Translations under genes and position numbers: made by a program
Origin: Clostridia bacterium
Lineage (GTDB): Bacteria; Bacillota; Clostridia; TANB77; CAG-465
Assembly: GCA_028692955.1 (NCBI GenBank)
Contig: JAQUWH010000001.1
Coordinates: forward strand, 1 to 64,000
Direction of reading: 5' to 3'
Length of the DNA stretch: 64,000 nt
In this document: positions 18,390 through 40,372 of the stretch, piece by piece
Layout: each line of letters begins with the position of its first letter
How positions within the stretch are numbered: the stretch's first letter is position 1
The notes under the pieces: generated by a model
Databases searched by the model: none
Told to the model about the DNA's origin: nothing
Seen by the model: only the letters and a program-made list of their open reading frames with translations

Positions 18390-19502
18390 TTATTGTTTTA
18401 ATTTAATTGGTAAAACAACATAGATAAATTCATTACTTGCAATTGGTTTTATTAAAACTGGTGATATACTAGAAGTAAATTCAACATAAATTTCTTGATC
18501 GTCAATTGATTTTAATGCTTCAATAACATATCTAGGATTAAATCCAATTTCAATATCTTTTCCTTCTACTACTGCAGTTATCATTTCTTTTGCATCACCG
18601 TTTTCACTAACACAACTTAAGATAACTCCATCTATTTCTATATTCATTTTAACAGGTGATTTTTTATCTTTTTCTTTATTTTCTTTTGCAAATAGTGCAA
18701 CTCTTTCAAAAGAATCCAAAAGACTTTTTGTTTTAATCTTTATTTTAGTTTCACATGATTCAGGGATAATATTATTATAATTTAAAAATTCTCCTTCAAT
18801 AATTCTACTAACAATGATACTTTGTCCTATTTCAAATAATGCTTGATTTTTATTAACACCAATTTTAATCATTTGATTTTCTTCTTCACTTAATATTTTA
18901 AATAATTCCGCAAGTACTTTTCCTGGAATAATTGCTTTAAAATTATTAATTGATTTTTCACTTAAATATTTTCTAAGTGATAATCTGAAACCATCAATTG
19001 CTACAATAGTTAATATATTATCTTCTACTTTTAATAAAGCTCCATTATAGATTGGTCTATTTTCATCATTACTAACTGAAAATAATGTTCTTTTAATCAT
19101 GTCTTTTAATATTTTTTGTTCTAACATAACAGAAGAATCAACATTAAATATTGGTAATTTAGGATATTCATCTGGATTCATGACTGTTAATTTAAAAATA
19201 CCATTAATAGATTTTAATATAAATACGTTATCTTGTACTTCTATTTCTATTGTTTCATCTTCTATCTTTCTTATAATTTCATTTAACATTCTAATATCAA
19301 CTACTGTACTACCTTCAGATATGATATCACAATTAAAAGTATGCTCAGAACCTATATCTAAATCATAAGTAGTTAATTTAATAGTTCCTTTAAACGCTTC
19401 TATTAATACTCCATCTAATATTGGCATTGTTGTTTTATTAACAGATTTTGTTACGATATTTAATCCGTTTATTAAATCTTTTAAGTTACATTTTATATTC
19501 AT
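18390..19502 (-). CDS. dnaN: DNA polymerase III beta clamp
   Basis: About 370 residues, standard. The sliding clamp. Three repeated clamp domains fill the protein; KTTMPILDGVLIEA in domain 1, DENRPIYNGALLKV in domain 2 and the C-terminal PVLIKPIASNEFIYVVLPIKL are typical. I chose the ATG at 19502 with GGAGG seven bases upstream rather than the in-frame ATG at 19544. It lies downstream of dnaA across the origin spacer. Confidence 0.96.
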   Translation of the reverse strand: MNIKCNLKDLINGLNIVTKSVNKTTMPILDGVLIEAFKGTIKLTTYDLDIGSEHTFNCDIISEGSTVVDIRMLNEIIRKIEDETIEIEVQDNVFILKSINGIFKLTVMNPDEYPKLPIFNVDSSVMLEQKILKDMIKRTLFSVSNDENRPIYNGALLKVEDNILTIVAIDGFRLSLRKYLSEKSINNFKAIIPGKVLAELFKILSEEENQMIKIGVNKNQALFEIGQSIIVSRIIEGEFLNYNNIIPESCETKIKIKTKSLLDSFERVALFAKENKEKDKKSPVKMNIEIDGVILSCVSENGDAKEMITAVVEGKDIEIGFNPRYVIEALKSIDDQEIYVEFTSSISPVLIKPIASNEFIYVVLPIKLKQ

Positions 19503-19618
19503 TCTATTTCCTCCATTTATATTTTTTATCAACATTATTAACATTCATTGTTTTATTATTGTCAATTTATTCTTATATTTGTTTAATGTATATTACAATT
19601 TATTAAATATATATATTT

Positions 19619-19903
19619 ATTCTCCACATTTTCCACAGAAAATATGTTCATAATAATAAAAAATTGCTTATATAAATACTATTATTATATTATATATTAA
19701 TTTAGTAGTAGTAGTAGTAGGTGTTGTGGAAAATGTGGAAAACATATTCAAAGTATTAATATAAATTAATTTGGCGCTGTTGATAAACTTGTGAATAACT
19801 TGTATTATTTTTCCACAGAAAATATGTTCTGTGTGGATAATTTTTATCTTTTTAAGTTATACACAAGTTATTAACATAGTTTTCCACTATTTGCTGTGGA
19901 TAA
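19619..19903. other. oriC: oriC core in the dnaA-dnaN spacer (DnaA boxes)
   Basis: The spacer holds perfect DnaA boxes (TGTGGATAA) at 19832-19840 and 19895-19903, one-mismatch boxes at 19629-19637, 19809-19817 and 19857-19865, a two-mismatch box at 19619-19627, and two abutting TGTGGAAAA boxes at 19725-19733 and 19734-19742. The stretch at about 19655-19702 is almost pure A/T and would be the unwinding element, next to a TAG repeat. Genes run away on both sides of the dnaA region. This is the Firmicutes origin plan; the site of unwinding is inferred. Confidence 0.85.
19703..19720 (+). repeat. DnaA-trio element, six TAG repeats
   Basis: Six uninterrupted TAG trinucleotides, four bases away from the tandem boxes at 19725-19742 and directly beside the A/T stretch. 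Order (A/T region, trios, short gap, DnaA box) and strand match the DnaA-trio element described in Bacillus, where each trio binds one DnaA on single-stranded DNA. Confidence 0.75.
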
Positions 19904-19959
19904 GTTTTTGTATGTAATATTAGTAACATGTATTTGTAACATAATTGTAATAGTGTCTT

Positions 19960-21369
19960 CTAATCCTCTATAGATAAGGATTTCTTTATTTCCTCTATCA
20001 AATCTTTTGTTTCAGGATTACTTCCATATTCGCTTGTTATTTTAGAATAAGCATGTAATACTGTTGAGTGATCCCTACCCCCAAAATCTTTACCAATACT
20101 TGGAAAAGACATATTTGCTAATTCTCTACATAAATACATCGCTATTTGTCTTGGAAATGCTACACTATTAGAGCGCTTAGTGCTAGTCATATCTTGTACT
20201 TTTATATTAAAGAATTTACATACTACTTGCATAATTAATTTACTTGTAATTACTTTTGTATTTTTTACTAATATAGATTCTATGGTATTTTCTACAACAG
20301 CGTCTGTTAAAGGATTATTAGTAAATGATGTATAAGCAACTAATTTATTAAAAACACCTTCTAATTCTCTAATATTTGATTTTACTCTTGTTGCTATTTT
20401 AACAAGGATTTCATCATCAATTACGTACCTTTCTTTCTCTGCTTTTTTTCTAAGTATAGCAAGACGCGTTTCATAATCTGGTGTTTGAATGTCAACAGAA
20501 AGTCCCATTTCAAATCTAGTTTTTAATCTATCTTCTAATAAAGGAATCTCTTTTGGTGGCTTTTCAGATGTTAAAACAATTTGTTTTCCACTTTCCCATA
20601 AAGTGTTAAAAGTATGGAAAAATTCTTCTTGACACTTCTCTTTTCCAGCTAAAAATTGTATATCATCTATTAGTAATAAATCAATATTTCTATATTTTTT
20701 TCTGAATGATTCATTTTTGTCTGACATGATAGCAGATACTAATTCATTTGCAAAAACTTCACCAGTACAATAAATAATTTTTGAATTTTTATTTGCTGCA
20801 CACATTGCATTTCCTATTGCTTGCATTAGATGCGTTTTTCCAAGCCCAACTCCCCCATATATAAATAATGGATTGTATTTTTTACCGGGATTTTCTGATA
20901 CTGCCACTGCTGCTGCATTTGCAAATCTGTTATTAGAACCTATAATAAAGTTTCCAAATGTGTATTTTGGATTTAAACCTTGTCTATCTTTTGTATTCTG
21001 TTCTGTAGAACTTGTAGTATTTTCTTGTACTTCTTCTACTCTTTCTTCATTTGTGGTTTTTACTAATTCTTTATTTGGTATGATAGTCTCTTTTATTTCA
21101 TTATTTATTTCAGGAATAATTTCTTTTGATTCGAATATAATGTCATAAGATTTATTTGTTAAGATTGTAAGAGTGTTCTCTATCAAATCAAGAAATCTCT
21201 TTTTGCAAATATCAATGTGATAACTAGAAGGTAAAATAAAGCAAAGAGTACTTTCATCAACAAGTCTTGGAGATATAACTTCTACGTATGTTTTATAAGC
21301 TACTTGAGACATCTCATTTTTAAGTAATTCCAAGGCTTCAGACCAAATTTGAGTAAAACTTTTTTCCAT
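19960..21369 (-). CDS. dnaA: chromosomal replication initiator DnaA
   Basis: 469 residues. Domain I (IWSEALELLKNEMSQVAYKTY) is followed by a Thr/Glu-rich linker (about 90-130), an AAA+ domain with Walker A GGVGLGKT (172-179) and Walker B LLLIDDIQFLAGKE, and domain IV with GGRDHSTVLHAYSKI, the DnaA-box-binding signature. A good GAAAGGTGG site precedes the ATG. DnaA boxes upstream (21405-21491) suggest autoregulation. Confidence 0.98.
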   Translation of the reverse strand: MEKSFTQIWSEALELLKNEMSQVAYKTYVEVISPRLVDESTLCFILPSSYHIDICKKRFLDLIENTLTILTNKSYDIIFESKEIIPEINNEIKETIIPNKELVKTTNEERVEEVQENTTSSTEQNTKDRQGLNPKYTFGNFIIGSNNRFANAAAVAVSENPGKKYNPLFIYGGVGLGKTHLMQAIGNAMCAANKNSKIIYCTGEVFANELVSAIMSDKNESFRKKYRNIDLLLIDDIQFLAGKEKCQEEFFHTFNTLWESGKQIVLTSEKPPKEIPLLEDRLKTRFEMGLSVDIQTPDYETRLAILRKKAEKERYVIDDEILVKIATRVKSNIRELEGVFNKLVAYTSFTNNPLTDAVVENTIESILVKNTKVITSKLIMQVVCKFFNIKVQDMTSTKRSNSVAFPRQIAMYLCRELANMSFPSIGKDFGGRDHSTVLHAYSKITSEYGSNPETKDLIEEIKKSLSIED

Positions 21370-21438
21370 AAAACCACCTTTCTAAAAACACATGTTTTTT
21401 TTAGTTTTCCACAGAGTTATCAACAGTTGTTGATAACT

Positions 21439-21447
21439 TTTCGACAA
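21439..21447 (-). promoter_or_regulatory. Spo0A-like box next to DnaA boxes
   Basis: Reads TTGTCGAAA on the minus strand; as ATTGTCGAA it matches the Spo0A box TTTGTCGAA in eight of nine bases. It lies one base from the inverted DnaA boxes. In Bacillus Spo0A binds the origin and represses initiation at sporulation. Confidence 0.45.
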
Positions 21448-21533
21448 TTTCAGATAATTTAATAAATAAATTTACATAACTATTGTGGATTGATGTGAAA
21501 CATGTGAAAATTAATAGTTTTTTTTGTAGCACT

Positions 21534-21562
21534 AATATATCATGAAATACACAAAAATACAA
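21534..21562 (-). promoter_or_regulatory. candidate dnaA promoter
   Basis: TTGTAT (21557-21562) and TATATT (21534-21539) with 17 bases between them on the minus strand, leaving a leader of about 160 bases that contains DnaA boxes. Confidence 0.5.
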
Positions 21563-21831
21563 TACTTTTGAAGTTTTTTAAATAAAAAAAATAAATAGAT
21601 GTAAACGGAACAAAAAAATAAGATACCTGTGGATAAGTATTCATAATTTGTATAAAAAGAAAGAAATTATCATGATATTAACACAAAATAAACACATACT
21701 TTACAATAAAATTAAAAATAAAAAAATAAGCATATATAACAAATATGTAAATATTTTAATGTTATATTATTATAAATTTGAGTTATTATATTTAATGTAA
21801 TAACTTTTTTTATATTCTTTTTAAAAAAAAA

Positions 21832-21860
21832 TTGACAAAACGGAAAAAATGTTATATAAT
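21832..21860 (+). promoter_or_regulatory. consensus promoter of the rpmH operon
   Basis: TTGACA (21832-21837) and TATAAT (21855-21860) with 17 bases between them, about 100 bases before rpmH. Confidence 0.8.
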
Positions 21861-21960
21861 AAATTCACTTGATTAAAAAGATAAAAGTGTATTTTTAATA
21901 ACATAATTATTTTTAATAGATAAAGGTGAATCATATTTATTACATTTGGGAGGTGTAACA

Positions 21961-22095
21961 ATGAAGAGAACTTATCAACCAAAAAAATTACATAGACAAA
22001 AAGTTCATGGATTTATGAAAAGAATGAAAACTGTTGCTGGAAGAGCTGTTTTAAAAAGCAGAAGAGCAAAAGGAAGAAAAGTATTAAGTGCTTAA
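21961..22095 (+). CDS. rpmH: 50S ribosomal protein L34
   Basis: 44 residues, standard. [18 protein letters not shown] and [10 protein letters not shown] are the L34 signature. L34 is a small basic 50S protein. GGGAGGTG lies before the ATG. It is the first gene of the rpmH-rnpA-yidD-yidC-jag run on the plus-strand side of the origin; a hairpin separates it from rnpA. Confidence 0.97.
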
Positions 22096-39109: not shown

Positions 39110-40372
39110 TTGAAACAAATCTATAAAATCAATAATAATAAATTCAATAGTATGTATATTTCTATTAATTTTACAATGAAAGTAAATAGAGAAGAACTCT
39201 CTAAATCTGCATTGCTTGCTTCTGTTATGGGAAAATCATGTAAGAAATATAAAACACAAACTGAAATCGAAACGTATCTTTCTAAATTATATGGAACAAA
39301 TTTTGATGTAAATGTTCAAAAAGTAGGAGAGTTATATAATATAGAGTTTCGTTTAGAACAAGTGAATAAAAACTATTTACCAAATAAGACCGATGTATTA
39401 GAAAATAATTTGAAATTTTTATATGAAATTATTTTCAATCCTTATTGTCATGAAAATGAATTTGATAAGGAAACAGTTGAAAGAGAAAGAGTTTCTCTTC
39501 TTCAAAAAATAATGTCAAAGAAAGATGATAAGACCGCGTATGCAGTATACAGAACAGAGCAGCTTATGTCAAACAATCAAATAGCAGGAGAGTATTTATT
39601 TGGTGATGAAGAAATTGTTAAAAATATAACATCATTACAGTTATATAAGCAATATGAAAAATTGTTAAACGACTCTTGTATTACTGTGATACTATCAGGG
39701 AATCTGGATAGTTATGAAGAGATTGATGTAACTATTGATGATATCTTTAGAAAGAAATTGGAATCTAAATACTTATTCAATGAATTAAATATCAATTCAA
39801 ATAAAAATGATAAGGTAGAAGAATTAGAAGAAACATCAGAATTGCAGGAAACAAATCAAAGTACTCTTACCTTTGGGATGAGAGTTTTAAATGCAACACA
39901 ACAAGATTTCTATACTTTAAATGTATATAATGCGATACTTGGTTCGACACCGAGTTCAAAACTGTTCCAAAATGTTAGGGAAAAAGAATCTTTAGCCTAT
40001 ACAGTAAAGTCAAGATTTTATCGCTTTAATAACATTATTATTATTTATGCAGGAATTCAAAAAGCAAATTACGAAAAAGCAAAAAAGGTAATTCATGAGC
40101 AATTAAAACAAATTGAAAATGGAGAAGTGACTACAGAAGAATTTGAAGCCGCTAAGCAAAGTATCTTGGCGGATTTATTAGAATGGGAAGACTCTAAAAT
40201 TGCCATAGCTAAAATGTTATTTTCTAATTTATTTGCTTTTAAAAGTGATAATGTGACAATACAAGAAATGTGTGAAAAAATTAGTAATGTTACATTGATA
40301 GATGTACAAGATATTGCCAAAAGAATTAAAACAGAACATATTTACCTATTGGGAGGTGAAGCAGATGTATAA
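39110..40372 (+). CDS. yfmF: M16 peptidase-like protein YfmF (EF-P modification-associated)
   Basis: 420 residues. M16 family fold (YEIIFNPYCHENEFDKETVERER, LFQNVREKESLAYTVKSRFY) without the HxxEH zinc motif, so a non-catalytic partner. Bacillus YfmF/YfmH affect 5-aminopentanol modification of EF-P according to the family names in use; I infer the same link here. The start is a TTG with AGAGGTGA upstream, since no ATG fits. It overlaps yfmH by eight bases. Confidence 0.8.
   Translation: MKQIYKINNNKFNSMYISINFTMKVNREELSKSALLASVMGKSCKKYKTQTEIETYLSKLYGTNFDVNVQKVGELYNIEFRLEQVNKNYLPNKTDVLENNLKFLYEIIFNPYCHENEFDKETVERERVSLLQKIMSKKDDKTAYAVYRTEQLMSNNQIAGEYLFGDEEIVKNITSLQLYKQYEKLLNDSCITVILSGNLDSYEEIDVTIDDIFRKKLESKYLFNELNINSNKNDKVEELEETSELQETNQSTLTFGMRVLNATQQDFYTLNVYNAILGSTPSSKLFQNVREKESLAYTVKSRFYRFNNIIIIYAGIQKANYEKAKKVIHEQLKQIENGEVTTEEFEAAKQSILADLLEWEDSKIAIAKMLFSNLFAFKSDNVTIQEMCEKISNVTLIDVQDIAKRIKTEHIYLLGGEADV

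Follow-up and report, generated by a model that had tools for sequence, protein, structure and literature searches.

The dnaA–dnaN intergenic region

What lies between dnaA and dnaN in this genome? In the 64,000-nt stretch of Clostridia DNA that we analysed (the window), the two genes are separated by a 415-bp gap, with recF and gyrB as neighbors of the origin region on the left and rpmH and rnpA on the right. Inside the gap, direct reading of the plus strand finds an uninterrupted run of six TAG trinucleotides, (TAG)6, bordered on one side by A/T-rich DNA and on the other by a four-base spacer and two abutting DnaA boxes (Table 1). These are the elements named by the original prediction, which took them for a DnaA-trio origin unwinding toward dnaN. 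The elements are confirmed, and the proposed origin and direction of opening are supported by the order in which they stand and by the recurrence of the same anatomy across the order.

Table 1. Positions of the predicted origin features and neighboring genes in the window
Feature	Position	Strand	Basis
dnaN (DNA polymerase III beta clamp); ORF start set mechanically, true start may be further in	18390..19544	-	PF00712, PF02767, PF02768
Two abutting DnaA boxes on the dnaN side, facing the BUS boxes: TGTGGAGAA (19620-19628) and TGTGGAAAA (19629-19637)	19620..19637	-	Box scan
A/T-rich predicted unwinding element flanking the trios	19650..19702	.	Sequence, stability calculation
Six perfect DnaA-trios, 5'-TAG-3' x6 (3'-GAT-5')	19703..19720	+	Sequence, shuffles, assembly count, relatives
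Spacer GTGT, 4 nt	19721..19724	+	Sequence, relatives
Trio-proximal DnaA box TGTGGAAAA	19725..19733	+	Sequence, box scan
Second DnaA box TGTGGAAAA, abutting the first	19734..19742	+	Sequence, box scan
DnaA-box-like sites toward dnaA	19809-19817, 19832-19840, 19880-19888, 19895-19903	-, +, -, +	Box scan
dnaA (initiator, 469 aa)	19960..21369	-	Profile matches, alignment
dnaA–rpmH intergenic region, with box-like sites at 21405 (-), 21438 (-) and 21628 (+) and the GC-skew minimum at 21479	21370..21960	.	
rpmH (L34), right-hand neighbor of the origin region	21961..22095	+	

In shuffled windows, (TAG)6 was matched 0.11 times on average with as many as three mismatches allowed, versus one exact match plus its three overlapping shifts in the real sequence. 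The tract is the single copy of (TAG)6 in the whole assembly (1,253,440 bases in 25 contigs), and, homopolymers aside, the window has just one more perfect trinucleotide run of at least four units, (ATT)4 at 40034. Sites within one mismatch of TGTGGAAAA number 8 in the gap and 56 across the 64 kb; the shuffle mean is 31.2 per window, or ~0.2 per 415-bp gap. By nearest-neighbour energy, the 60-mer at 19650–19709 ranks second among the window's peaks of instability, with 0.005% of all 60-mers in the window less stable.

A basal unwinding system (BUS) is defined by a DnaA box, a spacer, and at least three DnaA-trios (PMC8287927). The rule allows a box up to two mismatches from TTATCCACA, and here TGTGGAAAA (that is, TTTTCCACA) occurs twice with one mismatch each; it requires at least three trios with a middle A within 16 bp of the box, and here there are six TAG units at a distance of 4 nt. 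The boxes form an abutting pair (19725–19742)—tandem boxes being the commonest BUS arrangement, at 57%, in the same source—and the site lies in a predicted oriC adjoining dnaA, with unstable A/T-rich DNA alongside. From its sequence, conservation, gene context, and calculated stability, we conclude that the (TAG)6 site is very probably the BUS of the chromosomal oriC, and the succession of boxes, spacer, trios, and A/T-rich DNA points to opening toward dnaN. The gap also holds an exact 21-bp direct repeat, TTTTCCACAGAAAATATGTTC, whose two copies (19629–19649 and 19809–19829, 180 bp apart) flank the BUS, one per side; each consists of a DnaA box and 12 more identical bases.

The window's DnaA keeps the trio-contacting residues: N208, R223, and E249 align (via 8btg) with Asn187, Arg202, and Glu228, which the B. 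subtilis structure shows in contact with the trio (PMC10721633). The same genome encodes a PF07261 DnaD/DnaB-like protein with two DnaB_2 domains (G000:C3:78996–79955), adjoining a gene for an AAA+ ATPase that, from its Pfam matches and position, may be a DnaC/DnaI-type loader. By analogy with work on B. subtilis and C. difficile, DnaA would bind the two abutting boxes, cross the 4-nt spacer, and extend as a helical oligomer along the six plus-strand trios—the predicted single-strand track—capturing the A and the G of each. The duplex would then open into the A/T stretch on the dnaN side, and the freed opposite strand of CTA repeats would serve for DnaD-type loading. Read from the complement, that strand has five TnnT steps, and the DnaD recognition element (DRE) is defined by at least two 5'-TnnT-3' opposite the trios. 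The B. subtilis DRE, as described in PMC10201434, likewise combines TnnT steps opposite the trios with a DnaD/DnaB-like gene; the two DnaB_2 domains of the loader candidate set this genome apart from it.

The closest published parallel is the BUS of B. subtilis, which shares tandem boxes (DnaA-boxes 6/7), a short spacer, six trios, an A/T flank, and strand logic with the window (PMC10721633). At least one of its trios (#3) differs, however, whereas all six are TAG in the window. In B. subtilis, an origin engineered to carry 3'-GA-5' at each of its six trios is reported to be functional (PMC10721633), and the window's origin is its natural counterpart. In the B. subtilis structure, seven DnaA protomers engage six trios (PMC10721633); the six-trio length found here looks selected and fits that arrangement. 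In the literature that we searched, the phrase "six DnaA-trios" was found in one paper, on B. subtilis. The DnaA-trio of Clostridioides difficile oriC2 resembles the window's in gene order and in opening downstream of dnaA, and its printed sequence, in our reading, runs TAG TAG TAA TAG TAG TAG in the window's register (PMC7561715). It differs in having one TAA, plus a TCA that might count as unit seven, and its opening was tested with P1 nuclease (PMC7561715); opening in the window is predicted from the sequence. Taken by itself, then, the window's site is one more BUS origin, a very clean one, whose opening signal is already known.

GC skew and the site of opening

How does the putative origin relate to GC skew? 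A skew switch at this spot had been proposed as a check, and taken at face value the check fails: the cumulative minimum of the window lies at 21479, 1777 bp to the right of the trios. Within the gap the skew also changes sign at the BUS (-0.33 to its left and +0.19 to its right), as calculated from few G and C. A bipartite origin (oriC1 between rpmH and dnaA, oriC2 between dnaA and dnaN) would have clusters of DnaA boxes in both regions and an unwinding element in one of them; in the window, box-like sites number 8 in the dnaA–dnaN region and 3 in the dnaA–rpmH region. Unwinding might occur in the dnaA–rpmH region at the skew minimum, where there are the three box-like sites and an unstable 60-mer (21732–21791), with the tract between dnaA and dnaN as an accessory site for DnaA titration or regulation. 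However, scanning the dnaA–rpmH region for trios found no tract, and in C. difficile, where the genes are arranged alike, the dnaA–dnaN region is the one that opens (PMC7561715); its opening in vitro is reported to have required both intergenic regions (PMC7561715). Comparison with relatives also counts against it. In two other genomes with the window's layout the minimum is offset from the BUS by 2030 and 2077 bp, but in three genomes of a sister lineage, with dnaA on the other side, the offsets are -12, -46, and -173 bp, on a near-minimum plateau that is ~1.2–1.4 kb wide and lies between about -330 and +1180 bp.

We therefore reject the skew minimum as the origin and consider unwinding in the dnaA–rpmH region highly improbable. 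Initiation would instead take place at the BUS between dnaA and dnaN, with the minimum displaced by dnaA, whose own skew in the window is -0.13; our explanation is that the minimum lies off the BUS because dnaA is transcribed toward the origin.

Trio number and recognition across the order

How general is the anatomy of the window's BUS? Among 114 genomes sampled from the order, a BUS was read in 95 and tallied in 92; the three that were read and left untallied are G010 (degenerate tract), G110 (short contig), and G063 (no box). The 19 genomes in which none was read comprise 10 without a DnaA match, 5 with a weak or partial one (G020, G024, G064, G089, and G105), and G068, G075, G081, and G090. 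The scan accepted spacers of 3–5 nt, scoring those of 3 or 5 nt slightly below those of 4, and favours TAG-rich tracts, not tracts of six; the tracts of G036 and G094, both missed by the automatic scan, were set by a hand-written pattern. Reversed-sequence controls scored at most 0.25 among the matches listed, and most real tracts scored 3 to 6.

Across the 80 tallied genomes outside the sister lineage, which are related and so do not represent independent events, TAG occurs at trios 1 to 6 in 72, 52, 64, 55, 66, and 74 genomes, and at trio 7 in 1. The spacer is 4 nt long in 79 of the 80. All of trios 1–6 are TAG in 31 of the 80 genomes (including the seven-unit G022) and in 16 of the 22 genomes that share both the window's family and its layout. 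The length of six trios is thus the conserved trait, even where the units differ (e.g., TAG TAG TAA TAG TAT TAG), and perfection is ordinary here. Of the expectations raised at the outset, conservation of trio number in relatives holds, with six in register; the view of six perfect trios as striking loses force. Conservation of the number itself, beyond the trio sequence, agrees with the six-trio structure. In a wider search of the class, (TAG)4-N1-7-TGTGGA matched 21 of 391 genomes, versus 2 for the reversed pattern. All 21 matches are in register, 19 of them directly with a 4-nt spacer and 2 (G274 and G025) with a TAT trio ahead of the 4 nt. Among those from other families, several read as six trios and others as fewer.

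Could slippage have produced the TAG run as a trinucleotide microsatellite, its match to the DnaA-trio being incidental? The repeat is perfect and its unit number varies among relatives (seven in G022 and five in G002, both of the window's genus, and four after two TCG in G039), but (TAG)6 occurs once in the assembly, TAG drops from 74/80 at trio 6 to 1/80 at trio 7, spacer and boxes are conserved along with the tract, and six units stay in register across four families (f1, f3, f4, and f5) despite differing in sequence; with length, spacer, and register kept by nonidentical units, we reject this scarcely credible reading. In the single genome of family f2, the tract is less clear and the spacer is 3 nt.

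The same 80 genomes also bear on how DnaA might recognize the trios. The middle base is A in 471 of the 480 cells at trios 1–6, C in 8, and T in 1. The middle-C cells, which likely represent fewer than eight independent events, are TCA in G008, G001, G018, and G031 and TCG in G039 (twice), G009, and G036; the sole middle T falls at position 6 of G002, whose tract is five long. With C in 8 of the 9 exceptions, the pattern is as predicted by, and would fit, the published amino-group recognition rule. Exceptions that are nearly all cytosine thus offer an evolutionary check on the amino-group recognition model. In genomes of family f5 (e.g., L224 in G027 and L223 in G050), the trio-proximal box is TGTTAG-like (TGTTAGTAG, TGTTAGTAA, TGTTAGTTG, or TGTTAGCAA), with the second box mostly of canonical form.

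A sister lineage with a different origin layout

Within the window's genus (28 genomes), two layouts are found. In 14 genomes, the window's included, the BUS adjoins dnaN and lies between dnaA and dnaN; for one of these (G019), with dnaN and BUS on another contig than dnaA, the layout is inferred. In 13 others the dnaA–dnaN gap measures only about 55–124 bp and has no BUS. Eleven of the 13 carry the BUS upstream of dnaA on the same contig (in degenerate form in G010), and G006 and G038 have BUS and dnaA on separate contigs, such that their layout is again inferred. The remaining genome, G020, has no full match to dnaA, dnaN, or recF at 93% completeness; the assembly probably lacks its origin region, and its DnaD-like protein (53% identity) falls within the range of the sister lineage. 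Examples of the sister layout are L176 (G015), L166 (G005), L167 (G007), and L170 (G013), to be contrasted with 19545–21960 of the window.

Eight read genomes from other genera of the family and 58 tallied genomes from other families have the window's layout; because the outgroups all carry it, the sister layout is derived. We aligned the long dnaA–rpmH gap of 11 sister genomes to both gaps of 13 window-lineage genomes. The BUS part matched a dnaA–dnaN gap in all 11, at E 7e-20 or better. In 9 it was followed, on the rpmH side, by the best match to a dnaA–rpmH gap, with G007 and G004 deviating from this order. Part of the signal, both in these matches and in scattered shorter ones, comes from the repetition of DnaA boxes. 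Most simply, dnaA would have switched sides and the origin stayed put. A tblastn search of the 11 regions with three DnaA proteins found no remnant of dnaA at its old site (no match at E <0.4), and so it is the flanking alignments that document the move. Among the papers listed in our searches on origin layout, dnaA relocation, and Z-DNA at oriC, no title or opening part of an abstract describes dnaA switching sides in this way inside one genus.

No support was found for a transfer of dnaA into the family from outside: the DnaA tree accepts both lineages as one clade (likelihood 1.93 above the free quick tree, p-AU 0.56). The DnaN tree draws the sister lineage as nested within the window's lineage, placing G002 and G039 next to it with support of 88. 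Because the alternative of separate clades keeps a p-AU of 0.43, we do not claim this nesting and claim only, from the outgroup comparison, that the layout is derived. G002 and G039 both have a GGGC spacer and fewer TAG units, five in the former and four plus two TCG in the latter.

Do the two lineages differ in more than gene order? In 12 tallied sister tracts (G010 left out), 11 have five TAG and none has TAG at trio 6; the spacer is GGGG in 10 and GGGC in 2. Where B. subtilis has Arg202, the aligned DnaA residue is Lys in all 13 sister genomes versus Arg in 81 of 82 others. At the Asn187 position, Ser is found in 3 of 13 sister genomes and Glu in 1, versus Asn in 81 of 82 others. The one genome with Glu, G010, is also the one with degenerate trios (a single case). 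A tight link between pocket and trios is made less likely by the three sister genomes with Ser, whose tracts still have four or five TAG, and by two genomes from outside the lineage, G053 (Lys) and G076 (Ser), which retain six trios. Identity in DnaA domain III is 0.74 between the lineages versus 0.90 within the window's; the corresponding values for DnaN are 0.73 and 0.75, and the RecF ranges of the two lineages overlap. DnaD-like proteins are 63–89% identical to that of the window in 12 window-lineage genomes versus 52–59% in 12 sister genomes, with no overlap and with one genome per lineage lacking a match.

A further difference is a CG tract, CGCGCGYRCG, carried by 12 of 13 sister genomes and by G002 (L067), in each only at oriC; where measured, it begins 48–60 bp past the trios in the A/T direction. 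It occurs away from oriC in three window-lineage genomes, and the reversed-pattern control matched nine genomes, all of them tract-bearing, and was therefore uninformative. The sequence of the tract (CGCGCGYRCG and longer) varies and its alternation is retained. A Z-DNA-type element or a GC clamp would be guesses as to its role.

The sister lineage thus differs jointly in gene order, trio number, spacer, DnaA pocket, and DnaD. A tentative reading, which we stop just short of calling probable, is that the initiation module was rewired in coordination within the genus, trio number being a counted ruler for the DnaA oligomer that coevolves with the DnaA pocket. The move of dnaA to the other side would have turned an origin split by dnaA into one uninterrupted origin, with five trios, a GGGG or GGGC spacer, and, ~50 bp away from the trios toward the A/T flank, a CG tract; Arg202, which captures guanine, would have become fixed as Lys, and DnaA and DnaD would have diverged where DnaN and RecF did not. 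The cause and the order of these changes are part of this tentative reading, and we rate it lower because Arg-to-Lys and Asn-to-Ser each occur once outside the lineage together with six-trio tracts. The joint differences make the control of trio number and origin layout directly testable. Directly upstream of dnaA in G004 (L165:2698–3453, minus strand), there is also a 251-aa open reading frame with three copies of DnaA domain I (PF11638).
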